A DNA stretch of 54,794 nucleotides from Anaerolineae bacterium (GTDB lineage Bacteria; Chloroflexota; Anaerolineae; DUEN01): the NCBI GenBank assembly GCA_025060615.1, contig JANXBS010000024.1, positions 1-54,794 of the forward strand, written 5' to 3'. Positions 8,610-41,184 of this stretch are shown here, one piece after another. The notes under the pieces were generated by a model. That model did no database searches. It worked only from the letters and a program-made list of their open reading frames with translations, and had not been told where the DNA came from. How positions within the stretch are numbered: position 1 is the first letter of the stretch; every line of letters begins with the position of its first letter. Made by a program: the position numbers and the translations under genes.

Positions 8610-10688
8610 TCATTCATACGGCGGCAGCGGCTTGGTGAAGTCCATCGTCTCCCAGGCCTCGATCATGGCATCCACGTTCTTGGCTGTGACGATATCCATA
8701 CCGGAGTTGGTGAACGACTCAAATTGCTTGCCGTTGACGATGTAGTCGTAGATCATCTGCACCGTGTCGTAGCCCCAACCCCAGTACTTCTGGCCGACCA
8801 AGCCGTAGATCAGCCCTTCCTTCACGTACTCCAGCTCGACGGGGAGGGTGTCAAAGGCGACCGTCTGCATGCCTTTCTTGGCAGCCTCCTCCCACAGCGG
8901 CATGGAGCCGCGCTCGGCGAAGAGCGGCCACAGCCCGACGAAGAACCAGCCGTCCAGGTCAGGATAGGCCTGCATTGTCTCCTCTACCACCTGGACGCCT
9001 AGGTTGATGTCGTCATTACAGGCGACGGTGGTCACGATCTCCAGATTGCTGCCGGCGATACCGTCCTTGAAGCCGCGAATGCGCTCCTCCAGGTTGAAGG
9101 CACCTGGCACACCGGTGAGGATCGCCACCTTGCCGCCGTTAGGCAGAGCCTTCTTCAGCAGCTCGGCTGCCGCCTTGCCACCCTCGTAGTTGTCCACGCC
9201 TAGGTAGGTGAATCGCTTGCTATTGGGCGAGTCGGAGTCCCAGGTCATGACCGGGATGCCGGCCTCCACTGCCTTGTTGATGGGGTCCTCGCAGCCGGTA
9301 GGGTCATTGCACGACACGCCAATGGCGTCCACCCCCTTAGCGATGACGTCCTCGATCACCCGCGCCTGCTCGGCCATGTCCGAGGCCACGGAGCCGGTAT
9401 AGAGGATCTCCACCGTGTACGGACCCTGCTCAGTGAGCTCCTTGGCCCGCGTCTCCGCGCCCACCTTGCCCAGCTCGAACACAGGATTGTTGAGCGCCTT
9501 GGGGATCCAGGCGATGACGATCTTGCCGTCGGCCAGGATCTTCTCCCGGTCAAAGGTCACTGCGGCCGGCGCGGCGGGCGGCTGGAACTTGAAGGCGTCC
9601 GCGGGCGGTTCCCAGCCCTCGGTAGTCCACTCATGCGGGATGCCCTTGGCATCCAATTGGGCCTCGTACTCCTTGAGGTTGGCGGCGGTGACCACATCCA
9701 CGCCGGTGTCAATCACGCCGTTCTTAGCCCCCATCTCCTTGAGCGCTGCATCCACGCCCTTCTCGGCCATCAGCTTGATGATCTGGACCGACTTGTAGCC
9801 CATGTCATACTCGCGTTGGGCCACCGTGGCATGGATAACGCCTTCCTTGATGAAGTTGATGATGTCGGTGGTGGCGTCGAAGGCGACGATCTTGATCTGG
9901 CCGGCCTTGCCCGCCTCCTTTACCGCCGTCGCCCAGGCTGGGCCATTATAGGCATATACGCCGAAGGCGCCCGCCAGGTCGGGGTTCGCCGAGAGCACCG
10001 AGTTGGCCAATTGCAATGCGGTAGCCGCGTCCTCTTTGTCATTGACCGGCTCTAGGGCTGTGATCTTGGTGCCTTCGATGGCTTTTAGGAAACCATCGGT
10101 GCGCTGCAGTGCGTTCAGCGCCGTGTCAGAGCCACGGCCGATACCCACCTTGCCGCCCTCGGGCAGCAATTGCTTCATCGCCTCGCCGGCGATCATGCCC
10201 GCAGTGTAGTTATCGGTGCCGATGTAGACCAGGGAGACGCTTCCCTCCACCGGCGGGGTGTCCAGCGTAGTAACTAGGATGCCCGCATCAGCCGCTTTCT
10301 TCATCACCGGCTCTAGCGCGTTCGGGTCGGATGGCGCGATGGCGATACCCGTCACGCCCTGGGCGATGTAGGTCTCCATGGTCTGGATCTGAGCCGCTAC
10401 GTCCTCTTTCGACGGGACGAAGAAGATGGCCTGATCTTCGGAGAGGCCCAGGTCCTTCGCGGCCGCGCGCACCCCTTTCTCAACGTTCGACCAATAGGGG
10501 TGCACCGATTTGCCGATGACGACCACTTTGAATGGCTTGGCTTCGGCAGGAGCCGGCGTGGGCGTCGGTGCAGGCTGCTCGGCAGGGGCCGGCGTGGGGG
10601 TAGGGGCCGGCGCTGCCGGCGCACATGCTGCCAACACCATGCTCACCAGTACCAGCAGCGAGAGCACGCTGAACAGATGTCGCTTCAT
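8610..10688 (-). CDS. Lipoprotein with two tandem sugar-binding (PBP1, RbsB-like) domains
   Basis: 692 residues, about twice the family norm. The ATG at 10688 is fixed by an ideal AAGGAGG 7 nt upstream. Residues 1-22 are a lipoprotein signal ending LAAC (Cys22). A Pro/Thr/Ala linker (23-50) follows. Two complete periplasmic-binding-protein domains of the Peripla_BP_4 type come next: domain A about 53-355 ([26 protein letters not shown]) and domain B about 388-690 ([30 protein letters not shown]), joined by a Pro/Ala linker (365-380). Each half resembles a full RbsB, so this looks like a gene fusion or duplication. It should sit on the outer face of the membrane and feed the two flanking permease/ATPase pairs. 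Confidence 0.9.
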
Positions 10689-10709
10689 GGGTTTACCTCC
10701 TTCGCTTGA

Positions 10710-10737
10710 ATTATCACTTATTATCAAGTGAGGACAA
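10710..10737 (-). promoter_or_regulatory. Possible internal promoter before the tandem binding protein gene
   Basis: Minus strand -35 TTGTCC (10737-10732), 16-nt spacer, -10 GATAAT (10715-10710), about 22 nt before the ATG at 10688. Repeated TTATCA steps here may also be an operator. It would allow extra expression of the binding protein. The rest of 10689-10927 holds no gene. Confidence 0.45.
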
Positions 10738-10927
10738 CAGACAGCGCAGCCATCATCGAGTACAAGTCGTGCTTTCTTATTGCCTGAGATCACCTCCCTT
10801 ACCTTAGCCTACGTCAAATCTCAGAGGGCACTGCGACTTTACAGAACTCTTTAACGGCCTCAAGAATTTGATCTAGTTCCGGGCATGTAACTACGTAATC
10901 ATCTTCTTCATGTTTGATCTATTTCAT

Positions 10928-21830: not shown

Positions 21831-21860
21831 ATTATAGCCCCTGTGCCGAAGCTGTGTCCA
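21831..21860 (-). promoter_or_regulatory. Promoter for the subtilase gene
   Basis: Minus strand -35 TGGACA (21860-21855), 18-nt spacer, perfect -10 TATAAT (21836-21831). It overlaps the last codons and stop of the upstream sugar kinase gene; leader about 70 nt. Confidence 0.65.
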
Positions 21861-22863
21861 TAGGTACACTGGGGGACCTTCGCAAGGAGGCTGGCATAGT
21901 TGCCCGCAGTTGCTCGTATACGGCAGGAGTGGCCTGTCCTCCCTCTGCTTCCAGCGCAATCAACCAAGCTCCCACTACTGGCTCGAACTCGGGCACCACG
22001 ATTCGGGCCAGCGGCGCGATCTTGTGCACCGTCATCGCGATCACGTCGAACAAGAGTGGCCCCTTTGCCTTGAAGATGCTGCCGCCTAGCACCACCTCCA
22101 CATCCGTCTCTGTCAAGCCCAAACGGCGGATGATTGCCCCGGCGGTGATTCCCACCTCCTCTCCCTGCATCGTCACCAGTTCCTGTGCCACAGCATCCCC
22201 TCGGTAAGCAGCCTCGAAGATTAAAGGTGGCAGCCGATAGAGCCAGGATCTCAACCGCTCTGGCTCCTGGTATAAAGCCTGCAGGAGTTCGGCCATATCG
22301 CTCATTTCGAGCGCGTTCAGGATCATCTCGGTCAGCATAGTTTGCGGGCCGCGGCCGTCCCAAGCCCGCATGACGCGACGGATCGCCTCGCGCGCTAAGT
22401 CTCCTCCGCCACCCCAGTCCCCCGAGATCCAGCCTAGGCCGGGGAACACGATCTCCGTTCCATCTGGGCCACGGCCTGCCGCATTGGTGCCCGACCCGCA
22501 GATCACCGTCACACCCCACGGCCGGCTCAGCCCCGATCGCAGCGCGGCTATGGTATCGTTCTTCACCGTGATCTTCTGTGCCAGCCCCAAGGCGCGCACG
22601 GCCGGGATCAACATGGCGTAGTCCTGGGGCAGGTCAGCGCCAGCCAGGCAAAACGCGCCGTGCGTCACCTGATCCCCGCGCAAGCCAGCTTGTGTCAGCG
22701 CTTCCTCTCCGGCCCGGCGATATTCCGCCACCACCGCCTCTAGGCCCGGCCCCTGATGGTTTCCAGGGCCGCCGCGCCCAAATCCTAAGATCCGCCCGCT
22801 CTCATCTCCGACGATGCAGAAGGTCTTTGACGCCCCCGCGTCCATCCCTAGGAAAAAGCGCAT
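21832..22863 (-). CDS. BadF/BadG-type ATPase, N-acetylglucosamine kinase-like
   Basis: 343 residues from the ATG at 22863, which has GGAGG just upstream; the longer frame has no ribosome site and overlaps the previous gene. It belongs to the ASKHA fold: phosphate-1 loop GMDAGASKTFCIVGD (6-20), phosphate-2/connect region VICGSGTNAAGRG and GDWGGGGDLAREA, and a late VVLGGSIFKAKGP adenosine motif. The BadF/BadG family includes eukaryote-like N-acetylglucosamine kinases and other amino-sugar kinases, and here a hexose or amino sugar kinase is more likely than a reductase activator (no CoA-reductase genes, no cluster cysteines). It is the last gene of the RadC-GH4-GNAT group. Confidence 0.82.
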   Translation of the reverse strand: MRFFLGMDAGASKTFCIVGDESGRILGFGRGGPGNHQGPGLEAVVAEYRRAGEEALTQAGLRGDQVTHGAFCLAGADLPQDYAMLIPAVRALGLAQKITVKNDTIAALRSGLSRPWGVTVICGSGTNAAGRGPDGTEIVFPGLGWISGDWGGGGDLAREAIRRVMRAWDGRGPQTMLTEMILNALEMSDMAELLQALYQEPERLRSWLYRLPPLIFEAAYRGDAVAQELVTMQGEEVGITAGAIIRRLGLTETDVEVVLGGSIFKAKGPLLFDVIAMTVHKIAPLARIVVPEFEPVVGAWLIALEAEGGQATPAVYEQLRATMPASLRRSPSVPMDTASAQGL

Positions 22864-22874
22864 CCCCCTCCACC

Positions 22875-23681
22875 TCACCGCGGTAGGTAGTAGCACTCTT
22901 GCGCGAACAATCGCTGAAATCCCAGCCGGACGTATACCTGTTCCGCAGGGCTGCCGGCGATAACCTGTAAACAAACGTGATCCTCATGAGCGATCGCCTC
23001 ACGCATAAGATGCCCTACCAGGGCACTGGCGATGCCTCGCCGGCGAAAGGCTGGCAACGTGCCCACCGCGTAAATCCCGGCCACCCCCGCCTCTCGAAAG
23101 AGTTGCGCGCAGCCAGCTGGCTTTCCATCCCATTCCGCCAGATAGCTGACCGTCGTTCCTTGCCTAAACCGTCGGCAGAGCGACGCCGTAAACGTCGGCG
23201 ATGCTGGCAGCTCAAAGCTGCCGACCAGGACCGAAACCCATTGTGACATCTCCGAGGCCTCAACTACATGCCAGGAGAGGTGGGGAGATGGTGGGGAAGG
23301 CTCGGGCGGAGCGTCGGCCACCATTACGATGATGTCCTCCACCCGAATCCAGCCGGCCTGGGCGAGCGCTTCCCGCAATCGCGGCGAGGCTGCCCACGGA
23401 TTCACCTGAAGCTGCGCTGAGCGCCCGCGTTGGGCGAAGAAGGCGCGCGCCTCTTGTGCAAAGGCGACCTCCTGCCCAGGAGCGACCTGTACATCTCGGA
23501 CCCCGTTAACTGGCGGGCTGGTAAGGGACTCATGGACGAAGAAGACCCCCTCAGGCCAGATGTGTACCTCGCTCAACTGAGCCCAGTAAGCCAGCTCATT
23601 AGCGATGATGTCTCGCCATAGAGCTGGAACCCAGGCGCCTGAGGGATGTACTCTGGGCAACGTGGGAAAAAGGCGGAGCAT
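22875..23681 (-). CDS. GNAT family N-acetyltransferase
   Basis: 268 residues. The C-terminal half is the GNAT catalytic fold: GIYAVGTLPAFRRRGIASAL has the acetyl-CoA loop (RRRGIA) and VIAGSPAEQVYVRLGF the following strand-helix. The N-terminal half (1-130) is a poorly conserved domain, as in two-domain GNATs. Substrate unknown. It starts 3 nt after the GH4 stop codon and ends 11 nt before the kinase start, so translational coupling with sugar-metabolism genes is likely and an amino-sugar substrate is possible (inference). Confidence 0.85.
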   Translation of the reverse strand: MLRLFPTLPRVHPSGAWVPALWRDIIANELAYWAQLSEVHIWPEGVFFVHESLTSPPVNGVRDVQVAPGQEVAFAQEARAFFAQRGRSAQLQVNPWAASPRLREALAQAGWIRVEDIIVMVADAPPEPSPPSPHLSWHVVEASEMSQWVSVLVGSFELPASPTFTASLCRRFRQGTTVSYLAEWDGKPAGCAQLFREAGVAGIYAVGTLPAFRRRGIASALVGHLMREAIAHEDHVCLQVIAGSPAEQVYVRLGFQRLFAQECYYLPR

Positions 23682-23684
23682 TTC

Positions 23685-24980
23685 TCACCCCTGTCGGAAG
23701 AACTGCGGAAGGAAGGGCCGATGGGCCTCTAACAGGGCATCGAGCAAGCCTTTGGCTGCGGAGAATGACGGCACCAGTGGATGGGCTAGCAACGCTTGCA
23801 ACGCAGCCCGCCGATCGCCTTCGGCGCCGGCTTTGGCCGCCAGCACCTCATACGCCTTGACCTGCTGGGTGAGCCCGGCGATTTGCGGTGGCATCGGCGC
23901 GGTCACCAGCGGGCGCGCCCCTCCTGCGCCGATCACGCACGGCACCTCGACCACCACGTCGGGCGGGAGATTGGGGATCGCGCCGCGGTTGAGCGTGTTG
24001 ACTACGTGCACCTCGTTCTTGTTGTTCTCGATAGCTGAGATCAGCGACACCGCCACCTTCGAGTAATATGCGCCGCCCCGCTTCTCCAGCAGCTTGGGCT
24101 TCTCTCGCAAGTTCGGATCCTGGTACATCTCCATGAGCTGGCGCTCGATCTCCATGACCTCCTCACCGCGAGTTTTTTCCGCTTTGAGCTGCTTAGCCAG
24201 CATCCGATCGTGGTTGTAATAATAGTTCAGATAGTCGCAAGGGATGCATTCCAGGGTCTCCAATAGCTCTGCCGAGAACCCCTCATCGTCCTCGGGGCGC
24301 TGACGTGCCTCTTCCATCGCCTGCTGGAATACCTGTTCCCAGATGTCCTGTCCATCTATCCAGACGCCGCGCAGCCAGTTGAGATGGTTCAGCCCCACGT
24401 GGTCAATCGCGATCCGCTTGCGATCCACTCCTAACGCCTGAGCCAGCCGCATCTCGATGCCGATGGGGAGATTGCATAGGCCAATCACCGGGACCTCTCC
24501 ATAGCGTACTAGCGCCTCGGTGATTAATCCGGCCGGGTTAGTGAAGTTCAGCAGGAATGCCCCTGGTGCTAGCTGTCGCATGTCTCGGGCGATCTCCAAC
24601 GCCACCGGGATGGTGCGCAATGCCTTCGCAAATCCGCCCGGCCCTGTGGTTTCCTGGCCGATAACGCCGAAGCGCAGTGGGATCTTTTCATCTTGGATGC
24701 GAGCGGCCATCTGACCCACACGGATCTGGTTGATGACGTAGTGCGCGCCCTCGATGGCCCGCGGGCGCTCAGTGGTCAATTCCAGTTCAACATCTACGCC
24801 TGCGGCCTCTAACATGCGCCCTGCCAGCCCGCCGACGATGGCTAGTTTATGCTCGTCAATGTCCATCATGGCGATGCGCACCACGTTCAGCTCACTGCGG
24901 GCTTCCACAAATCCCTCGATCAGCTCCGGCGTGTACGAGCTGCCGGCGCCGATTACCGCGATCTTCAGCTCTCGCCCCAT
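23685..24980 (-). CDS. GH4 family 6-phospho-beta-glucosidase-like glycosidase
   Basis: 431 residues. The N-terminal Rossmann motif IGAGSSYTPELIEG binds NAD. Family motifs IGQETTGPGG, LNFTNPAGLITEA, the metal-ligand Cys in GLCNLPIG and His in DHVGLNHLNW are all intact. GH4 enzymes cleave (usually 6-phosphorylated) glycosides by an NAD- and Mn-dependent redox-elimination route in the cytoplasm. AGGAGG lies 4-5 nt before the ATG; the gene follows radC by 16 nt. No PTS is in view; the downstream BadF-type kinase could supply a phosphorylated sugar. The exact glycoside cannot be told. Confidence 0.9.
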   Translation of the reverse strand: MGRELKIAVIGAGSSYTPELIEGFVEARSELNVVRIAMMDIDEHKLAIVGGLAGRMLEAAGVDVELELTTERPRAIEGAHYVINQIRVGQMAARIQDEKIPLRFGVIGQETTGPGGFAKALRTIPVALEIARDMRQLAPGAFLLNFTNPAGLITEALVRYGEVPVIGLCNLPIGIEMRLAQALGVDRKRIAIDHVGLNHLNWLRGVWIDGQDIWEQVFQQAMEEARQRPEDDEGFSAELLETLECIPCDYLNYYYNHDRMLAKQLKAEKTRGEEVMEIERQLMEMYQDPNLREKPKLLEKRGGAYYSKVAVSLISAIENNKNEVHVVNTLNRGAIPNLPPDVVVEVPCVIGAGGARPLVTAPMPPQIAGLTQQVKAYEVLAAKAGAEGDRRAALQALLAHPLVPSFSAAKGLLDALLEAHRPFLPQFFRQG

Positions 24981-31690: not shown

Positions 31691-34270
31691 TCAATAAACC
31701 TTTCCAAACTTGAGCCGCAATAGATTCTCACCGAAGCGGATCTCCATCTGCTGAGCTGGCCACTCGGCCATACAGTAGGGGTTTTCATAGTGCTTAAAGC
31801 CAGTAATCGGTTGCACCTTTCCGTCTACTAACAGTGGACCTTCCCAGCTAAAGGCCAGAGACTGGCTGCGTAGGGTGGTGCAGCGCGCAGACAACCCCTC
31901 GAAGGCCACATTTAAGGCCAGCACCCTTTCTTGAAACTCGCCAAAGCCCCCGTCCTGTGCTGCCCGGCCCATGTGACACAACCAAATATTGTGGTGTCCA
32001 TGAGAGCGTAGCTCGCGATACGCGCTGGGCCCTCGTGTGACGAACTCCAGCCCCTGACTGGCGGTGAGGGCCAGGTATCCCTTGCCCTTTCGGGCGAAGG
32101 CCCAGCCATCCCGCAACACATGCTCATCAAAGGCGAAGGCAGGGAAGTAAGCGTGAGTGAACCCTAGCCAGTCATCGTCTGGCAGTCGGTAAATGGCGAT
32201 GAGCACATCCCGCCACTGGGCGACGCGGGGCAGGATAGCGTTCCCAAGCCAGAAGTTGGGATAAACGCTGTCTTTCTCGCTCATGCAGGGAGGGTGGGTG
32301 ACAAATACGATCGCATCAGGTCCCAAGGTAGCCTGCCAGATGTGCTCCTGAGAGCCCCTCTCGCCAGGATGATAATCTTGAGCTGAGCAAAGCATATAGT
32401 CCGGCGTCTTATAGGTGACCTTGTTCACCTCCCAGGAGCCGCTATCTTCATTACGCCACTCCTCCAGTTCGCCCGCGTGGCGCTCGCAATCCCACATTTC
32501 CTCCGGCAAGTCCGCGGCGATGTCAGAGATAATAGAGGGAAGTTCATACTCCTTAGCGCAGGCCAGGCTAACTGTCCCCATGAGATGATGGTTAAACGCG
32601 CCCATCCCCCACATCAGCCGGCTGATGCCGGCTGTGGCCTCGAGTCGCCCAGTTTTGATCATCGGTGTGTGGGCATGCCCATGTGTGGAGCCGAACACTC
32701 CCCGATATGAGTTGAGGGCCATGGTGAAGAAAAGCTTATCCATGACCACTGCGGCCAATTCCCATACTTGTCGGTTGCGGGCCAAGTCCATCAGGTGGGA
32801 AAGGGCTAGCACGATCCGTTCGAAGCTACAGGGAGCATCCCACTCTCGAAAGCCGCCCAATCCTCGCCGATGCAGCCAAGATATGGCCTTTTGCTCCCCT
32901 CGCTCTCGATGCCATCTTCCATTTTTGCCCGAATGGACAAATACCCGACGAGGATAAAGCTGGCCAGCCAGGAGCTCACAGGCATGAGATAGGATCTGAT
33001 GACTCTCGGACTGCTGGCGCAGGTCCTCATCCCCTGGCTCATCTATCCCATAAGGGAATTCCAAGATACACTTCTCCAGCAAATGCTGGAGTGAAGATGG
33101 GAAAGAGGGGTTCTTCCCATAGCGATACACCATGCCTAACAAGCCTAGCAGATACGCATTGCTATCGTTCTTGCGCTGATGAACCCTCTGGATAGCTTCT
33201 TCGATGGCGTCGGCTTTGACTTTAGGCCAACGCCCCAGCTCCATTTTAGCGATCTCGGTGAAGAGTCCCTCTTCTCGCCGGGCAGCATCGTCGAGCGCCT
33301 CTAGGCGACGCTCCTCATAGGTGTCCTGGGGCTGCTGGAAGAAGTGACGGTTGAGCACCCACAGGTCTATCTTCCGCTGGATGCGCATGTTTTGGTCGTA
33401 GTATTCTCGGGGCCTTGGCATCAGAACTGCCTGGTAAGGGCCCTCTGGCACCTCCCAAGGCCTGCCCAGGAAGGCGTGGTCTCCAGCCTTCCCTATCACA
33501 TGCGCTTCGGCGTAGATCCGACCTGATGGTCTTTGAAGGCGAACCATCACCTCGGCCGATATTGTCAGATCGTCAGGCCATCGGACGAAGATGTGTTCGC
33601 CCCCTGCGTAGACATCCCGGTCGAGATAAGCGGCTTCAAACACCCTCTCCAAAGTCTGGCGGCGGGCCCCTGCCCTGTCAGGGATCGGCAAAAGCACTCG
33701 AAGCGGCTCGGATCCCGTGTCAGAAGGAAAGCCGAGAATCCGCAGCGCCATCCGGTAGGGGCATGCCCGCAGCCCCACTTGCTCAAAGCGCACCAGGACC
33801 TCGTTATGGCCTTCCTGAAGTAGGGCCGGGAATGAGATGCTGTGGGGAGCCTGATCGGCGAAGCGCTCCTGCCGCAGAAGATGTCGCCCGTTCAGCCAAA
33901 GATCTGCCGGGCCATGCGTGGTCAGGACGAAGGTCACCTCCTGGGAGGCAGCGCTTGCAACCCGAGCATACGCCCAGGCTCGCAGGTAATGACAGGTGGG
34001 GTGAAAACCGGAAAGGTCTACAAAGTGATCCTCGAGGCAATGGACGGAATACCAACTTAGATCCTCGTCATCCGGCCTAAGCGCTCCTCTCTCGACGGGG
34101 AGCCAGGCAACGCCCGAATCCTCCTCATAGTAGTGACGGGCGATCTGAAGCTGGAGCTCCTGATCCCCTAAGCGGTCCGACTTGAGAATGGAAAGGGTTT
34201 GAGGGCCAGCTACCAGCCAGTGGTGGATATAACCGTCTTGCAGTTCGTAACCGATGTAATAGACAGCCAT
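31691..34270 (-). CDS. Large protein of unrecognised family, candidate alpha/alpha-toroid carbohydrate-active enzyme
   Basis: 859 residues from ATG 34270, which has GGTGAG 7 nt upstream and avoids overlap with the previous gene; 34297 is an alternative. No signal peptide, so cytoplasmic. Residues about 90-180 look like a galactose-binding jelly roll (FVLTTHGPADLWLNGRHLLR). About 200-310 is beta-rich. About 310-600 is helical with aromatic, His and Glu-rich motifs (ESHQILSHACELLAGQLYP; GLGGFREWDAPCSFERIVLA; GVFGSTHGHAHTP; MWGMGAFNHHLMG). About 640-859 is beta-rich again, with FVTHPPCMSEKD and FTHAYFPAFAFDEHV. The helical-then-beta layout recalls polysaccharide lyases and toroid glycosidases. 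It is last in the oligopeptide-type ABC operon, so it may degrade the imported oligomer. Function not established. Confidence 0.7.
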   Translation of the reverse strand: MAVYYIGYELQDGYIHHWLVAGPQTLSILKSDRLGDQELQLQIARHYYEEDSGVAWLPVERGALRPDDEDLSWYSVHCLEDHFVDLSGFHPTCHYLRAWAYARVASAASQEVTFVLTTHGPADLWLNGRHLLRQERFADQAPHSISFPALLQEGHNEVLVRFEQVGLRACPYRMALRILGFPSDTGSEPLRVLLPIPDRAGARRQTLERVFEAAYLDRDVYAGGEHIFVRWPDDLTISAEVMVRLQRPSGRIYAEAHVIGKAGDHAFLGRPWEVPEGPYQAVLMPRPREYYDQNMRIQRKIDLWVLNRHFFQQPQDTYEERRLEALDDAARREEGLFTEIAKMELGRWPKVKADAIEEAIQRVHQRKNDSNAYLLGLLGMVYRYGKNPSFPSSLQHLLEKCILEFPYGIDEPGDEDLRQQSESHQILSHACELLAGQLYPRRVFVHSGKNGRWHRERGEQKAISWLHRRGLGGFREWDAPCSFERIVLALSHLMDLARNRQVWELAAVVMDKLFFTMALNSYRGVFGSTHGHAHTPMIKTGRLEATAGISRLMWGMGAFNHHLMGTVSLACAKEYELPSIISDIAADLPEEMWDCERHAGELEEWRNEDSGSWEVNKVTYKTPDYMLCSAQDYHPGERGSQEHIWQATLGPDAIVFVTHPPCMSEKDSVYPNFWLGNAILPRVAQWRDVLIAIYRLPDDDWLGFTHAYFPAFAFDEHVLRDGWAFARKGKGYLALTASQGLEFVTRGPSAYRELRSHGHHNIWLCHMGRAAQDGGFGEFQERVLALNVAFEGLSARCTTLRSQSLAFSWEGPLLVDGKVQPITGFKHYENPYCMAEWPAQQMEIRFGENLLRLKFGKVY

Positions 34271-34278
34271 GTCTAGTC

Positions 34279-34623
34279 TCACCAGAGCATCAACCATAAA
34301 GCAAGGTTGGCCAAGATCAGGAACCCAATCTGAACGCCCGTTACCCAGGCGAATCGCCGTACTAACCGGCTCGTGCTAACGGCAGCGTCCTTTTGGTAGA
34401 GGGCCTCGCAGATATAAACTAACGCTAACCAGGCTAAGCCGAGGGCGACGAAGCCGAATTTCTCAATCGTTGGGAGGGTCCAACGATCGGCATCCAAGCG
34501 GAAGGCCACTGCGCGCAATAGCGTCCTAGCGACGAGCAGGTCTGCCACTCCCAGGGCGGTTGAGACCAGCCACAGGAGGTAAGGCCCACCCGATCGCCAT
34601 ATCCTGCGCCCTATCTGGCTCAC
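34279..34623 (-). CDS. Small membrane protein, unknown
   Basis: 114 residues from a GTG one base after the oppF-like stop (TAACGTG). Three predicted membrane helices: about 13-36, 56-76 and 90-114. Charged, Arg-rich ends and no recognisable motif. It ends 8 nt before the large enzyme-like gene, so it lies inside the transporter operon. It may be an accessory of the permease or unrelated; I do not recognise the family. Confidence 0.6.
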   Translation of the reverse strand: MSQIGRRIWRSGGPYLLWLVSTALGVADLLVARTLLRAVAFRLDADRWTLPTIEKFGFVALGLAWLALVYICEALYQKDAAVSTSRLVRRFAWVTGVQIGFLILANLALWLMLW

Positions 34624-34624
34624 G

Positions 34625-35668
34625 TTAAACTTCCACTGAAACTGTCACGGCCCCGGTCAGTGTGAGCTCCCTAGCCCGGTGACAGCGCACGTAGTGTCCC
34701 GGGCTGATCTCCTCAAGGAGGGGATCCTCCTGCCTGCAGATCTCTTGGGCATACAGGCACCGAGGATGAAAGTAACAGCCGGAAGGTGGGTTCGCCGGAT
34801 TGGCCACCTCGCCGGTGAGCAGGACGCGTTTCTCTCGCGGCCGTGGGTCGGGCCTGGGAATGGCCGACATCAGCGCTTCAGTATACGGGTGCTTCGGTGA
34901 GGCGAAAAGCTCAGCCGTGGGCGCCATTTCGACCAGCTTGCCGACATACATCACTGCCACGCGGTCGCTAATGTGGGCGACGACGCTCAGATCATGGGCA
35001 ATGAACAGGTAGGTCAGGCCCAATTGCTCTTGGAGGTCCTTGAGCAGGTTTAAGATCTGGGCCTGCACGGAAACGTCCAGCGCCGAGACCGGCTCGTCAC
35101 AGACGACGAATTTGGGATTCGGCGCCAGGGCGCGCGCGAGGGCGATACGCTGTCGCTGGCCGCCGCTGAAGGCGTGGGGATACCGCCGCATATATTCCGG
35201 CGGAAGGCCCACCAACCGCAGTAACTCGGCGACGCGCTCCTCTAGCTCTTTCCCTTTGGCGATGTTCATCGCCCGCAGAGGGGCGCCGACGATATCCAGC
35301 AGGGTCATGCGCGGGTTAAGAGAGGTATAAGGGTCCTGAAACATCATGCGCATGCTGCGGCGGACCTGTCTCAGTTGTTCTGCATCAAGTTTGCTGACAT
35401 CCACACGTCCCAGAACCGGATCTCTAAAAAGCACTTGGCCGCTAGTAGGTGGGATAGCTCGCAAGATTGAGCGTCCTACTGTGGTCTTCCCACAGCCGCT
35501 CTCGCCGACCAGGCCTAAAGTCTCCCCCTCCATGATATGAAAACTCACATCGTCCACGGCCTTCACATAGCCCACGACCCTTCGGAGAAAGCCGCGTTCG
35601 ATCGGGAAATACTTTTTCAGCCCTTTGACTTCCAGCAGGGGCTCGGCTTGATGAACTTGATCTTGCAT
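34625..35668 (-). CDS. Oligopeptide-type ABC transporter ATP-binding protein (OppF-like)
   Basis: 347 residues. Opens [16 protein letters not shown], then an [15 protein letters not shown] insertion typical of OppF/DppF. Walker [10 protein letters not shown], signature [15 protein letters not shown], Walker [15 protein letters not shown], switch His [11 protein letters not shown]. The C-terminal oligopeptide/dipeptide motif with cysteines ([19 protein letters not shown]) can bind an Fe-S cluster in relatives. It couples ATP hydrolysis to import with the OppD-like partner. AAGGA precedes the ATG by 8 nt; the gene is 88 nt after the OppD-like gene. In this family members can carry oligosaccharides as well as peptides. 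Confidence 0.93.
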
Positions 35669-35756: not shown

Positions 35757-36827
35757 TCATGGCTGCGAATACAGATGACATCGGACGAAGTGCCCAGCCT
35801 CAGCCTCGATATACTTGGGCTCCACCTGATTGCAGACTCCGGCGATGAAATCGGGACATCGAGGATGAAAAGAGCATCCTTTGAGCACGCTATAGGGGTC
35901 GGGCACCATACCTTTGATCACCTGTAAGCGCTTCTGTTTATGGTTTCGAGCGACCGCATCGTCTAATTGGGGAATCGACTTGAGGAGAGCCCGCGTATAG
36001 GGGTGCAAGGGGTTGAAGAAAAGATCGGTTACGGTAGCCTGTTCGACGACCTTGCCCAAATACATCACGGCGACTTCGTTGGCCATCTCAGCGATCACCC
36101 CTAGGTTGTGGGTGATGTACATGATGGCCATCCCCAACTCCTGTTGGAGCTCTCGCATTAGGTCCAGGATCTGCGCTTCGGTGGTGACATCCAGCGCTGT
36201 CGTGGGCTCATCGGCGATAAGCAGGCGAGGATGACAACTGAGGGCCATCGCGATGACGGCTCGCTGGCGCATACCCCCGCTCAACTGGAAAGGGTAATCG
36301 TCGATGGTCTTCTTCGGGTTAGGCATCCTGACCCGGGCCAGCATTTCAATCGCTCTCTCCCGGGCCTCGGCCTTGCTCACTTTCTGATGCAACTCGATGA
36401 CTTCCATGATCTGAGCCCCTACAGTGCGTACTGGGCTCATCGCCGTCATCGGCTCCTGAAATACCATGGAGATCTCGTTGCCCCGGATGGCTCGGATCTC
36501 CTTGCTGGTGGGGTGAAGCTTGGCCAGATCGATGACTTCAGTGGCCGTAGAGGAGTTGTCTTTGTTCACCGGCCTATAATATAGAATCTCGCCCCCCTCG
36601 ATCCGGCCAGGAGGAGGCACAATGCGCAGAATGGAATAGGCCGTCATGCTTTTGCCACAGCCACTCTCGCCGACGATTCCCAACGTTCGACCTCGCTTGA
36701 TCTTTAGATCCACGCCATTGACGGCCCGAACCGTGCCTTCAATCAAGTGAAAGTACATGTGTAGGTTTTTAATCTCGATTAGCACCTCGTTATCGGTTTC
36801 TACCAGGTTTTTGTACATCGCTGCCAT
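35757..36827 (-). CDS. Oligopeptide-type ABC transporter ATP-binding protein (OppD-like)
   Basis: 356 residues from the ATG at 36827 (the longer frame would run into the OppC gene; 36818 is another possible start). [20 protein letters not shown], Walker [10 protein letters not shown] (Met after Ser in place of Thr), signature [15 protein letters not shown], Walker [15 protein letters not shown] and the OppD/F C-terminal motif ([20 protein letters not shown]). A 20-residue insertion around the [16 protein letters not shown] region is typical. It pairs with the OppF-like ATPase. It begins 19 nt after the OppC stop. Confidence 0.92.
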
Positions 36828-36846
36828 CTCTTCAGAGGTTTTCCCT

Positions 36847-38019
36847 TTATGCAACGTACGGATCGGCGGCGTCACGTAAGCCGTCCCCCAGGAAATTGAA
36901 CATGAGCACCGCCGTGACCACAAAGGCCACCGGCCAGAGCAACCACGGCAATTGGGAGATGGTCTGCAAGTTTTGGGCGTCTTGCAACATCACTCCCCAG
37001 CTAATGGTCGGCTCACGCAGGCCGATGCCCAGGAAGCTCAGGGCTGTCTCTCCCAGGATCATCCCTGGGATGGAAATCGTCAATGAGACGATGATATAGC
37101 TGGCAAACCCAGGCAACATGTAACTGGTGATGATGCGCCACTCGCTTTCACCGTCCAGCTTGGCGGCCAAGATGTAGTCTTCCTCACGGAGGCTGAGCAT
37201 CTTGCCGCGTACGGTGCGGGCTAGCGTGGTCCAGCCTAGGACTGAGAGGATGATCGTGATATAGAAATAGACACGCAGTTGCGGCCAGTCTTGTGGTAAG
37301 GCGGCCGCCAGTGACATCCATAGAGGGATCGTCGGCAACGAAACCAGCACATCAATCACCCGCATAATGACTTCGTCCACGACGCCGCCAAAGTATCCCG
37401 CTATCCCTCCGAGGATCAGCCCCAGGAAGAAGGAAAGCCCCACGCCGATCAGCCCAACCGTCAGGCTGACGCGCGCCCCGTGAAAGATGCGCGATAGACA
37501 ATCCCGACCGAGGTTATCGGAGCCCAGGAGGAACAAGGGAGCCCTCTCGTTATCCCCAGTGCCGAGGAGGTGCAGATCGCTCTTGAACAATCCCCAAAGC
37601 TCGTACTCATTACCACGCACAAAGAGCCGGATGGGATAGATAGCTGAATAATCCTCTTTATACACAGGCCGCCGGGTGACCGGGTCACGCTCGCGCACGA
37701 TGCCGTAGATGAAAGGCCATCGTAGCCGGCCCTGCTGATCAATGATGTGGATCTTCGCTGGGGGGCTAGCGGTGAACTCTTTGTACCGATGCGAAGGGTT
37801 ATGCGGGCTGAGGAATTCAGCGAAGATGGCGATAAAATAGAAAATCCCCAAGACGATCATGGCCACTTGGGCCAGCTTATGCCGACGGAATTTCCACCAG
37901 ACCAACTGCCACTGTCCAGCCCGGTAGAATTCCTCCTCCCGTTTTTCTTCGAGAGCCCCCTCTCGACCTCTTCTCCAAAGAGAGCGGCTGCCTCTGACCA
38001 GTGAGCTCAGGCTGTTCAT
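36847..38019 (-). CDS. Oligopeptide-type ABC transporter permease (OppC-like), long form
   Basis: 390 residues, about 90 more than a standard OppC. After the first helix (about 52-70) there is a roughly 100-residue external insertion (SPHNPSHRYKEFTASPPAKI up to HLLGTGDNERAPLFLLGSDN) that would face the binding protein. The conserved permease core follows, with GRDCLSRIFHGARVSLTVGL and the EAA-like loop LDGESEWRIITSYMLPGFAS. It overlaps the OppB-like gene by 4 bp, so both are translated together. Confidence 0.92.
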   Translation of the reverse strand: MNSLSSLVRGSRSLWRRGREGALEEKREEEFYRAGQWQLVWWKFRRHKLAQVAMIVLGIFYFIAIFAEFLSPHNPSHRYKEFTASPPAKIHIIDQQGRLRWPFIYGIVRERDPVTRRPVYKEDYSAIYPIRLFVRGNEYELWGLFKSDLHLLGTGDNERAPLFLLGSDNLGRDCLSRIFHGARVSLTVGLIGVGLSFFLGLILGGIAGYFGGVVDEVIMRVIDVLVSLPTIPLWMSLAAALPQDWPQLRVYFYITIILSVLGWTTLARTVRGKMLSLREEDYILAAKLDGESEWRIITSYMLPGFASYIIVSLTISIPGMILGETALSFLGIGLREPTISWGVMLQDAQNLQTISQLPWLLWPVAFVVTAVLMFNFLGDGLRDAADPYVA

Positions 38020-39017
38020 GATGATTCCACACCTCCGAAGCGGATGCGGGGATCCACAATAGCCAACAGGATGTCAGAAATCAGGCTCCCCAACGCAGTG
38101 AGCGTGCCGATAATCAAAGTGTAAGCTCCTGCCGTATACATATCCTGTCGCATCAAGGCACGCCATAATACCGGGCCTGCTGTATTGAGATTGAGCACAA
38201 TCTCCACAACCATGCCACCTGAGAAGAACCATACCAACAGCCAGCCAAAGGTGCTGAGGATGGGGTTAATGGCAATGCGCACGGGGTACCGCATCAGCAC
38301 GTCGAACTCGGAGAGCCCCTTGGCACGGGCGACCGTAACATAGGGCTTGCGCAGCTCGTCCAGCATGGTGGCGCGTACTGTACGGATTAAGTTGGCCGTC
38401 CCGCCGATGGCAAGGACGATGACCGGCAGCCATAGATGTTTGAGCATGTCCACAAACTTGGCCCAGCTCCAGGGGAGCGGCTCGAATTCCGGTGAGAACA
38501 GCCCTCCCACCCGGATGCCAAAATGAGCATAGGCCACATACATGATTACCAGAGCCAGGAGAAATCCAGGCGTAGCCAGGCCGATAAAGCCCAGGAAAGT
38601 GAAGAAATAGTCAGCAATAGAGTACTGCCTTACTGCTACATAAATGCCCACAGGGATGGCGAAAGACCAACATACAATGAAACTGAGAAAGGCGATGAAG
38701 AAAGTAGTTCCAATTCTGGCTGTGATGACCTCACTGACGGGCTTTTGCCAATCAAACGAGTATCCGAAGTCAAACCGGGTCACAATATTGGTGATCCACT
38801 TGAGATATTGCTCATGCATAGGCCGGTCAAGGCCGTACATCTTCGTGAATCGCTCGACTTCGTATTGGTCTATAGTCACGCCAGAGGCGCGCAGACGGTT
38901 CAGATATTCTGTCAGATAATCTCCCGGCGGAAGCTGGATGATAATAAACGCTAGGACCGAGATCAAAAACACTTGCGGGATCATCCGTAGAAGGCGCTTG
39001 ACGATGTAACCCAACAT
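38016..39017 (-). CDS. Oligopeptide-type ABC transporter permease (OppB-like)
   Basis: 333 residues with six helices. MLGYIVKRLLRMIPQVFLIS is the classic OppB/DppB N-terminus; IQLPPGDYLTEYLNRLRASG begins the external loop, and VARAKGLSEFDVLMRYPVRI is the EAA motif that docks to the ATPases. It starts with ATG at 39017 behind a duplicated 18-bp segment whose second copy supplies AAGGAG. It is separated from the binding-protein gene by 112 nt containing a strong hairpin. Confidence 0.93.
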   Translation of the reverse strand: MLGYIVKRLLRMIPQVFLISVLAFIIIQLPPGDYLTEYLNRLRASGVTIDQYEVERFTKMYGLDRPMHEQYLKWITNIVTRFDFGYSFDWQKPVSEVITARIGTTFFIAFLSFIVCWSFAIPVGIYVAVRQYSIADYFFTFLGFIGLATPGFLLALVIMYVAYAHFGIRVGGLFSPEFEPLPWSWAKFVDMLKHLWLPVIVLAIGGTANLIRTVRATMLDELRKPYVTVARAKGLSEFDVLMRYPVRIAINPILSTFGWLLVWFFSGGMVVEIVLNLNTAGPVLWRALMRQDMYTAGAYTLIIGTLTALGSLISDILLAIVDPRIRFGGVESS

Positions 39018-39076: not shown

Positions 39077-39108
39077 TGCCGGATGCAGGCCCAGGCCTGC
39101 ATCCGGCA
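39077..39108 (-). promoter_or_regulatory. Intercistronic hairpin between binding protein and permease genes
   Basis: TGCCGGATGCAGGC (39077-39090) pairs perfectly with GCCTGCATCCGGCA (39095-39108) around a 4-nt loop. No U-run follows on the minus strand, so it is more likely an mRNA 3'-end stabiliser or attenuator, giving more binding protein than permease, as is known in other ABC operons. Confidence 0.75.
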
Positions 39109-39129: not shown

Positions 39130-41184
39130 TCAGGCTCGCCGGCCGCCCTCATAAAAGAACGCTTCGGGGTGATAAGTGGAAAGCCCGTAGGTATCCCAAC
39201 CGATGGGAACCTTGGGCCGCGGCAGGTTGCGCAGATTCTTGTTGAAGCAGAGCGGAGCCGGGCACTCCAGGACTAGGCCGATCTGCAACGGGTTATCAGC
39301 CAGGTAGTCGAAGATCTGCTGCATCAACTGGACGCGCTCGTTCTCATCCACTGTGGCCGTCACCTGATCAAAGAGGTCGTAGAGCCTCTTGATCTCATCC
39401 GGCGGCTCGATGAGGCCTGGAGCTGTCCGATCTGCGGCTGTGTACCAAACGGCCCATGCGGAGCAGGCTGTCCCCTGCTGGGGGTCACCGGTCGGGATGA
39501 ACCACTGCGGCTGGATGTGCAGAAGCAAATCCGTACAGCGGTCCTGATGCCAGACGCCGCAATGCACCTGGTAGGCCAGCATGCGCTCGTTGTAGAGCGA
39601 CTCCTGCACATACTTGGTGGTCGCATCAATCCCTACTTCGCGCCAGTAGGTGACGACCATTGCGGTGAGCTTGTCCGTGGCCGGGCCGACGCGCTCGCCT
39701 GCATGCTCGATGTTGAACTTAAGCCGCTGGCCGTCGGGCCGCAGGCGGAAGCCCTCGCTATCGCGCTTATCCAAGCCCATCTCATCCAGCAGCTTGTTGG
39801 CCAACTCGGGGTCGTACTGCGCCCAGGCCGTGCCGTACTTTTCCTTATAGTACTTAGAGTTGGGCATTGGGCTGGCCTGGCCCATGCGAGCCATGCCGTA
39901 GAACAGGCTCTCATTGATCTCGTCACGGTCAATTGCCACCGAAAGCGCCTTGACAAAGTTGGGGTGGTTGACGATCTGGGTCAAGACCGGGTCATCAGCG
40001 ATGTAGTGCTGCGGGAAAAGAATATATCGATCGGACATGCAGGAGAGATAGTCGCCGACGATGTAGTTGCCCCTGGCTTCGTTCTCCTTGTAGAACGGGT
40101 AATCGGCGATGGTGACATCGTGCTGCCCGAGGATATCTAGCTCGCCCTGGACCAGCTTGAGCTTGACCGCTTCGACGTTGGTCACATAGTCATAGCGTAG
40201 TCGGTCGATGTAGGGCAATTGATTGCCGGCCATATCTACTTTCCAGTAGTATGGGTTGCGCTCCCATAGGAACAAACCCTCCTGCGGACGTTCCACGATG
40301 ATCCAAGGCGAGAGGGTGGGGAAGCCGATGATCCAGTCGGGGCCTTGCCAGACGCCCAATCCCCATTGCGCGCGCTGGCTGAATAACGCCGCCCAATTCT
40401 CCAGCCCCTGCTCCTTAGCCATCGCGTCCAGCTTGGCCTGATCGGTGTACTTGGGATGAAACTGCTTATAGTAATGCGATGGAGCGATAATGCTGGGGGA
40501 GACGTTAGAGGGCTCCCAACGGGTTAAATGGGCGGCGAAGTTGCCAAATGGGGCGGCGAAAGTGATCTTAAAGGTGAAGTCGTCCACGATCTCCACCTTC
40601 ATAGGTTCGCCACCGAAGCGCATCTGCCAAGGAAGCGAGGCGACGAGCTCTTTGTTGAGATAGAAATCCTCCCACCAGAAGCGGACGTCTTCTGTGGTCA
40701 CTGGCTGACCATCTGACCACTTCATGCCTTGGCGCAGGTGTAGGGTGTAGCTCTTGCCATCCGGAGTGACCTCCCAGCTCTCCAGGATGTTCGGCACAAT
40801 TGTTCGCAGGTCAATGTCCGAGTAGTGGAGCATGCGCTCGGCGTTCAGGTCATAGTTGCTGACGAACCATACGGGGTCAAAGTGGATCATGCGCACTTCG
40901 CCACCGTATTCTCCGATGGCCTCGCGGCCACCCACGACTAGAGGGTTCACCGGCAACCGTTCCTCCACCGGTGGAAGTTGTCCAGCCGCCACTCGCTCGG
41001 CCAGCATGGGAGCTTCACGGTACTTCGCGGCCGGCTTCTCGACAATGACCTCCTTCTCGACGACGACGGTCTCTTTAATGACCTGGGGAGTAGGGGTGGG
41101 GCCCATACAGCCGGTCAGCATTCCAGCTGCAGCCGCCGCCGATACGCGCAGAAAGTCACGCCGGGTTACTTTGCGCTTTGCCAT
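39130..41184 (-). CDS. Oligopeptide-type ABC transporter substrate-binding lipoprotein (SBP family 5), Tat signal
   Basis: 684 residues, larger than the usual ~550. The N-terminus has a twin-arginine motif (VTRRDFLRVSAAAAAGML) and a lipobox TGC, so it is exported folded by Tat and lipid-anchored (about C26). The SBP_5 signature region is at about 140-180 (VTPDGKSYTLHLRQGMKWSD), and FVKALSVAIDRDEINESLFY, typical of the family, lies in the middle. This family binds peptides or, in several thermophiles, oligosaccharides. AAGGAGG stands just upstream of the ATG. It is the first gene of the seven-gene operon. Confidence 0.93.
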   Translation of the reverse strand: MAKRKVTRRDFLRVSAAAAAGMLTGCMGPTPTPQVIKETVVVEKEVIVEKPAAKYREAPMLAERVAAGQLPPVEERLPVNPLVVGGREAIGEYGGEVRMIHFDPVWFVSNYDLNAERMLHYSDIDLRTIVPNILESWEVTPDGKSYTLHLRQGMKWSDGQPVTTEDVRFWWEDFYLNKELVASLPWQMRFGGEPMKVEIVDDFTFKITFAAPFGNFAAHLTRWEPSNVSPSIIAPSHYYKQFHPKYTDQAKLDAMAKEQGLENWAALFSQRAQWGLGVWQGPDWIIGFPTLSPWIIVERPQEGLFLWERNPYYWKVDMAGNQLPYIDRLRYDYVTNVEAVKLKLVQGELDILGQHDVTIADYPFYKENEARGNYIVGDYLSCMSDRYILFPQHYIADDPVLTQIVNHPNFVKALSVAIDRDEINESLFYGMARMGQASPMPNSKYYKEKYGTAWAQYDPELANKLLDEMGLDKRDSEGFRLRPDGQRLKFNIEHAGERVGPATDKLTAMVVTYWREVGIDATTKYVQESLYNERMLAYQVHCGVWHQDRCTDLLLHIQPQWFIPTGDPQQGTACSAWAVWYTAADRTAPGLIEPPDEIKRLYDLFDQVTATVDENERVQLMQQIFDYLADNPLQIGLVLECPAPLCFNKNLRNLPRPKVPIGWDTYGLSTYHPEAFFYEGGRRA

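Follow-up and report, generated by a model that had tools for sequence, protein, structure and literature searches.

The gene at positions 31691–34270 (minus strand) of the window, by which we mean the whole 54,794-nt stretch of DNA that was analysed, encodes an 859-aa protein of a lyase-like family (hereafter ENZ) whose predicted active site is degenerate. We think it rather probable that this protein is a lyase-derived pseudoenzyme that acts as a non-catalytic cytoplasmic partner to an ABC importer of saccharides. The family, its fold class, the operon, the residue losses, their recurrence, the association with one clade of solute-binding proteins (SBPs) and purifying selection on other lineages with the loss were all computed.

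The gene and its transporter operon

The ENZ frame runs on the minus strand from an ATG at 34270 to its stop side at 31691; with the in-frame ATG at 34297 as the start, the product would have 868 aa. The plus strand of the same interval is stop-rich. Homologues were found in 73 of 396 genomes of the same class, most with 30–62% identity and many full-length, and the stretch is therefore more than a chance ORF: it is a real gene. The N-terminus (MAVYYIGYELQ...) shows no evident signal peptide, as the preliminary description had stated, and the motifs quoted there were located at residues 123 (DLWLNGRHLLR), 472 (GGFREWDAP), 527 (GSTHGHAHTP) and 557 (GAFNHHLMG).

ENZ comes last in a minus-strand series that begins with an SBP_bac_5 solute-binding lipoprotein carrying a Tat-like signal (39130–41184). 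This is followed by ABC permease 1 (38016–39017), ABC permease 2 (36847–38019) and ABC ATPase 1 (35757–36923, the longest ORF, with the true start probably downstream), all three assigned by homology, then by ABC ATPase 2 (34625–35668; ABC_tran and oligo_HPY) and a small membrane protein of 114 aa (34279–34623), after which ENZ starts at a distance of 8 nt. The SBP, the two permeases, the two ATPases and ENZ had been recognised as an operon before, but the 114-aa ORF had been overlooked. It is kept between transporter and ENZ in ~19 of the loci surveyed, whether their ENZ copy is intact or lost (defined below), and may serve the transporter as an accessory. Between the SBP and permease 1 genes, at 39077–39108, lies a perfect 14-bp stem-loop, TGCCGGATGCAGGC-CCAG-GCCTGCATCCGGCA. 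Stem-loops after the SBP gene are common where the SBP is outproduced relative to the permeases.

The SBP matches SBP_bac_5 with an E-value of 1.6e-57, and its Tat motif scores 21.9 bits, just below the Pfam cut-off of 22.7. It aligns over its full length, at 31% identity (E 5e-85), with the pectin-binding SBP SPH1118 from Sphingomonas sp. A1 (PDB 7VER and others), and both are annotated as oligopeptide-type. SPH1118, annotated as oligopeptide-binding, binds unsaturated trigalacturonate and hardly any peptides (PMC9314435). Judged by its sequence, the window SBP would be a family 5 (oligopeptide-type) SBP with full-length similarity to a saccharide-binding member. The earlier proposal of an oligopeptide-type transporter importing an oligosaccharide is supported by this resemblance as far as a saccharide rather than a peptide is concerned.

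Elsewhere in the window, a GH4 glycosidase gene with both Pfam GH4 domains is found at 23685–24980 (minus strand), near a BadF/N-acetylglucosamine-kinase-like ORF at 21832–22974. We rejected the GH4 gene as a partner of ENZ: it lies ~7 kb away and not in the ENZ operon, and GH4 is as frequent near intact as near lost ENZ loci.

Fold, relatives and predicted active site of the family

For the helical and C-terminal parts, neither ENZ nor any of 45 relatives had a match among the Pfam and NCBIfam models, and no PDB sequence was similar to ENZ with either a single sequence or a profile as query. Heparinase II/III (PF07940) was listed for none of the 45 family members at E-values up to 1; the window genome's own PF07940 match lies elsewhere (C26). 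Scattered weak Pfam and NCBIfam matches (ClpS adapter, RSC4 and others) were set aside as chance. These results agree with the earlier description of the protein as unrecognised. Among polysaccharide lyases (PLs), the comparison covered families with a solved structure, and the ENZ family may already stand under a CAZy number.

AlphaFold2 models, built on an alignment of 8 sequences, were weak (mean pLDDT 59.7 for the full length and 63.9 for residues 308–859), and residues 514–624 were poorly modelled. They give the domain order jelly roll, Ig-like, helical, beta-sandwich. Residues 1–315 (33326–34270, minus strand) would form a GH2-like jelly roll (about 98–196) and an Ig-like beta domain, residues 316–592 (32495–33325) a helical (alpha/alpha) toroid, and residues 593–859 (31691–32494) an antiparallel beta-sandwich. 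VIA and Foldseek searches with the N-terminal part returned GH2 N-terminal domains and CBM35, and eight of the 45 relatives weakly match the GH2 galactose-binding-like domain PF22666 at their N-terminus (best E 6e-4), in line with the jelly roll read from the sequence at the outset. The Foldseek list of the full-length model was filled by these GH2 N-terminal domains and uninformative on the toroid, so the catalytic part was folded separately. Its Foldseek ranks 1–13 are all toroid PLs (PL12, 15, 17, 33, 8 and PL35-like), including heparinase III, Atu3025 PL15, Alg17c PL17, PL33, chondroitinase and PL8. Structural alignment with VIA gave Z values of 9–11 across about 390–440 residues to PL35, PL21, PL17, PL8 and dermatan sulfate epimerase (chondroitinase 11.3, GAGase VII 10.9, dermatan sulfate epimerase 10.4, heparinase II 10.1, PL17 9.7–10); these values are moderate, yet the match list is almost uniform and both domains are spanned. 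As modelled, ENZ would belong to the toroid PL fold class (PL8/12/15/17/21/33/35/39 type), at fold-class level only, and the fold search bears out the toroid plus beta-sandwich lyase layout suggested earlier. GH88, GH105 and GH127, named as candidate folds in the same suggestion, were not listed; for GH88 and GH127 there was also no Pfam match in the family, while absence from the fold-match lists does not exclude them.

Apart from the class survey, homologues were detected in 5 of 400 sampled phylum genomes (the window's own included), on six named Anaerolineae/Chloroflexi MAG contigs and in 199 plasmid records, with ~24–30% identity among the plasmid matches listed; none was found on viral contigs. 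The carriers among these listed matches are Rhizobium, Sinorhizobium, Pseudosulfitobacter, Shinella, Thioclava, Gemmobacter, Haladaptatus and Subdoligranulum, and annotated homologues are labelled hypothetical protein. On the Haladaptatus plasmid (L090:1–1042 and 8851–10836) a shorter homologue, of 661 aa and with intact motifs, has a heparinase II/III protein and an acetylxylan esterase in its vicinity. A second, divergent paralogue (~25% identical) often shares the locus with the main copy (L002:14456–17044, L040:14418–17105, L037:4897–7455, L052:4363–6921 and others). These paralogues all carry intact motifs and EWHSNxY, and they usually stand beside a B12-binding radical SAM protein. At L001:3029–5047 (plus strand) a 672-aa ORF directly follows an intact ENZ; it is weakly related to the family (HMM E 1.5e-4), has no Pfam match and is perhaps a further branch.

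GH88/GH105 and KduI process the unsaturated uronates that lyases release. All nine annotated alphaproteobacterial plasmid loci that we read have GH88/GH105 within a few genes of the ENZ homologue, together with sugar ABC or TRAP transporters. KduI is present in five of the loci, KduD in four, and GH28 in those of Rhizobium. For the family, these uronate-pathway neighbours fit the uronic oligosaccharides named earlier as substrates to try; the pathway to DHU has been described (PMC12838403). Because of the toroid PL fold matches and the GH88/GH105 neighbours, we consider the family very probably a new, undescribed family of intracellular lyases. In the Chloroflexota, ENZ adjoins SBP_bac_5 operons and B12-radical SAM proteins. 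GH67 alpha-glucuronidase lies within 20 kb of an intact ENZ in five of 12 strong GH67 cases, where ~0.16 were expected (Poisson 8e-7). Large hybrid sensors (histidine kinase, receiver, AraC-type output) stand beside the transporter operon at L006:5677–9387, L002:1–1962 and L004:1–2736 and may be its regulators; the one in L006 has a LacI-like sensor domain, as judged from sequence.

We assembled 105 homologues and labelled them intact or lost by three residues, other pocket losses being scored separately. Asn423-His424 and Tyr482 are carried by 74 of the 105. These 74 intact members span phyla and reach down to 22% identity, yet N423, H424, Y482, R532 and Y534 are invariant among them, and His643 is found in 68; their family motifs are DCSDF, EWxSNxY and THGRxY. 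An unguided profile alignment lined up the N-H and Y of ENZ with those of heparinase II/III proteins, at a profile–profile score that is not significant by itself. The spacings are 59 (N–Y) and 161 (Y–H, to His643), and most families of solved PLs have Asn–Tyr spacings of 53–63 and Tyr–His spacings of 130–166 (PMC12088678). In Alg17c, Asn201, His202 and Tyr258 are the neutraliser and acid residues (PMC4765187). The family as a whole (74 of 105 members) thus appears to have the catalytic N-H ... Y ... H, and we infer that in intact members Asn423/His424 is the neutraliser, Tyr482 the acid and His643 the base.

Loss of the predicted active site and its recurrence

The window ENZ has Ser at codon 423 (AGT, 33002–33004), the predicted carboxylate neutraliser, and Ser again at codon 482 (AGC, 32825–32827), the predicted general acid; these are Asn and Tyr in 74 of 74 intact relatives. 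Codons 532 and 534 (32669–32677) are both His where all 74 have Arg and Tyr, and at codons 368–372 (33155–33169) NDxNA replaces the invariant DCxDF, all on the minus strand. W408G, F428S and R670Y are further changes, and GGFREWDAPCSF and GSTHGHAHT are degenerate forms of the family motifs EWxSNxY and THGRxY. H424, E476 and H643 are retained. Neither the Asn (or His) neutraliser nor the Tyr acid of toroid PLs appears to be present, S423 and S482 standing in their place.

The losses are concentrated in the pocket. Of 61 columns conserved in at least 93% of intact members, 17 are pocket-type (lost by other lost members) and 44 structural (kept). The window ENZ differs at 11 of the 17 and at 2 of the 44 (Fisher 1.8e-6), and in its closest intact relatives 0 or 1 column is changed. 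A relative from the same family, L096, has seven losses, all in the pocket set (4e-5). With Asn423, Tyr482 and the surrounding pocket residues lost, the window ENZ should not perform beta-elimination. The window genome has a single ENZ copy and KduI, and neither GH88 nor GH67 was found in it; as KduI is present despite the lost site, we discarded it as a marker of lyase activity. The preliminary description, which had the imported oligomer cleaved in the cytoplasm by this protein, is probably wrong about this copy. It would hold if the window ENZ were an active lyase of a new family that cleaves an imported oligo-uronide through His424, His532, His534, His643 and Glu476 as alternative residues. 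The lyase-like fold and family context, the three retained residues and the two extra His fit such an enzyme, but Asn423 and Tyr482 are both Ser, lost copies have no new conserved polar set in place of the missing residues, and the genome lacks GH88 and GH67; we regard it as quite unlikely.

Active-site loss is seen in 30 of the 105 members, about a quarter of the sample. In a tree built without the active-site columns the window ENZ is nested in a clade with 25 intact members and 2 lost ones, and well-supported branches force at least six state changes. The intact sites of distant homologues from other phyla and of the heparinase superfamily mark loss as derived. B12-radical SAM neighbours occur at 25 of 74 intact loci vs 1 of 30 lost ones.

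The missing catalytic residues, together with the absence of the downstream enzymes GH88 and GH67, could mean that an unneeded lyase gene is decaying. However, the frame is full-length with 42 of the 44 structural invariants kept, other lost lineages evolve with dN/dS well below 1, and the loss is recurrently associated with one SBP clade, which makes decay very improbable. In the pairs of lost copies that we compared, dN/dS is about 0.1–0.47 for every domain, and we conclude that these other lineages are under purifying selection. For the window lineage, whose dS to its closest relatives approaches saturation, the retained structural invariants suggest selection. In the toroid, dN/dS is mostly 0.1–0.25 in lost pairs vs 0.055–0.13 in intact pairs, and the best-kept domain is the sandwich in most lost pairs and the toroid in most intact ones. 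Near-invariant toroid columns number 26 in lost copies vs 110 in intact ones. The dN/dS values and the column pattern fit a relaxed constraint on the pocket of proteins that are still needed.

Lost ENZ copies tend to have related SBPs as neighbours. Mapped onto the 42 rows of the SBP tree, the ENZ state needs 2 changes, vs 13.7 in shuffles. The window SBP belongs to a clade of 13 rows whose ENZ neighbours are all lost copies (13 of 19 lost vs 0 of 25 intact; Fisher 5e-7, with kinship ignored and only three independent ENZ–SBP pairs). All 24 SBPs that adjoin an intact ENZ have Arg at position 466, where the seven members of the window SBP's clade have Glu or Ile. Arg57 and Arg466 are among the carboxylate-binding residues of SPH1118 (PDB 7VER and others); in a mapping that rests on a 31% identity alignment, the window SBP keeps Trp594 and Arg438 and has neither of these two Arg, so its ligand probably differs from that of SPH1118.

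Alternatively, the pocket may have been rebuilt for hydrolysis, isomerisation or other chemistry on a different imported sugar. The change from Arg466 to Glu or Ile along with the ENZ state fits a repurposed enzyme, as do S423, A533 and D667, which many lost copies have in common. We nevertheless find repurposing unlikely: the lost copies have no new invariant polar set, acid, base or nucleophile, their conserved toroid columns are far fewer, and the SBP residues are mapped at low identity.

Proposed role and comparison with known systems

Taken together, these results favour a pseudoenzyme whose inactivity, binding or sensing role and ligand we infer as follows. Once uronic-acid oligosaccharides have been imported, intact members would cut them in the cytoplasm through beta-elimination. 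Asn423/His424 would neutralise the carboxylate, Tyr482 would serve as the acid and His643 as the base, and the products would feed the GH88/GH105–KduI–KduD route. In the window, the importer would bring in a saccharide that ENZ binds in the cytoplasm without cutting it, and ENZ may buffer, sense or hand over this ligand. More generally, and here our confidence falls somewhat short of even, intracellular lyases may have turned several times (at least six tree changes) into non-catalytic partners of ABC importers by losing N423, Y482, R532, Y534 and DCSDF, often together with a separate SBP clade whose ligand residues have changed, moving from digestion to the sensing or handling of imported glycans.

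The use of uronic glycans would gain a cytoplasmic step from this unannotated lyase-like family, whose carriers include Rhizobium symbionts, marine Rhodobacterales, Clostridia, haloarchaea and many Chloroflexota. Its repeated disarming beside one type of transporter would offer a natural series on how enzymes become binding or regulatory proteins. It also calls for caution, since annotation by fold or operon alone would miscall the window ENZ as a lyase.

With the alginate lyases of PL17, PL15 and PL39 and the glycosaminoglycan lyases of PL12, PL21, PL33 and PL35, ENZ shares the predicted (alpha/alpha) toroid and antiparallel beta-sandwich, and its intact members have the N-H ... Y ... H order and spacing of heparinase II/III-like toroid lyases. 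It differs from the solved PLs in having no sequence-level match to any of them or to the Pfam heparinase models, and from toroid PLs in its added GH2-like N-terminal domains and its own motifs DCSDF, EWxSNxY and THGRxY; the window copy further differs in lacking the catalytic Asn and Tyr. A precedent for the layout is Sphingomonas A1, where alginate is imported whole by an ABC transporter and cut by cytoplasmic lyases (PMC9314435). Our literature search found no paper on PL pseudoenzymes tied to ABC transporters. In beetle pectin digestion, inactive relatives of plant cell wall-degrading enzymes are kept beside active ones (PMC6549527); those pseudoenzymes are eukaryotic, secreted and of another enzyme class, whereas ENZ is bacterial, intracellular and tied to a transporter.
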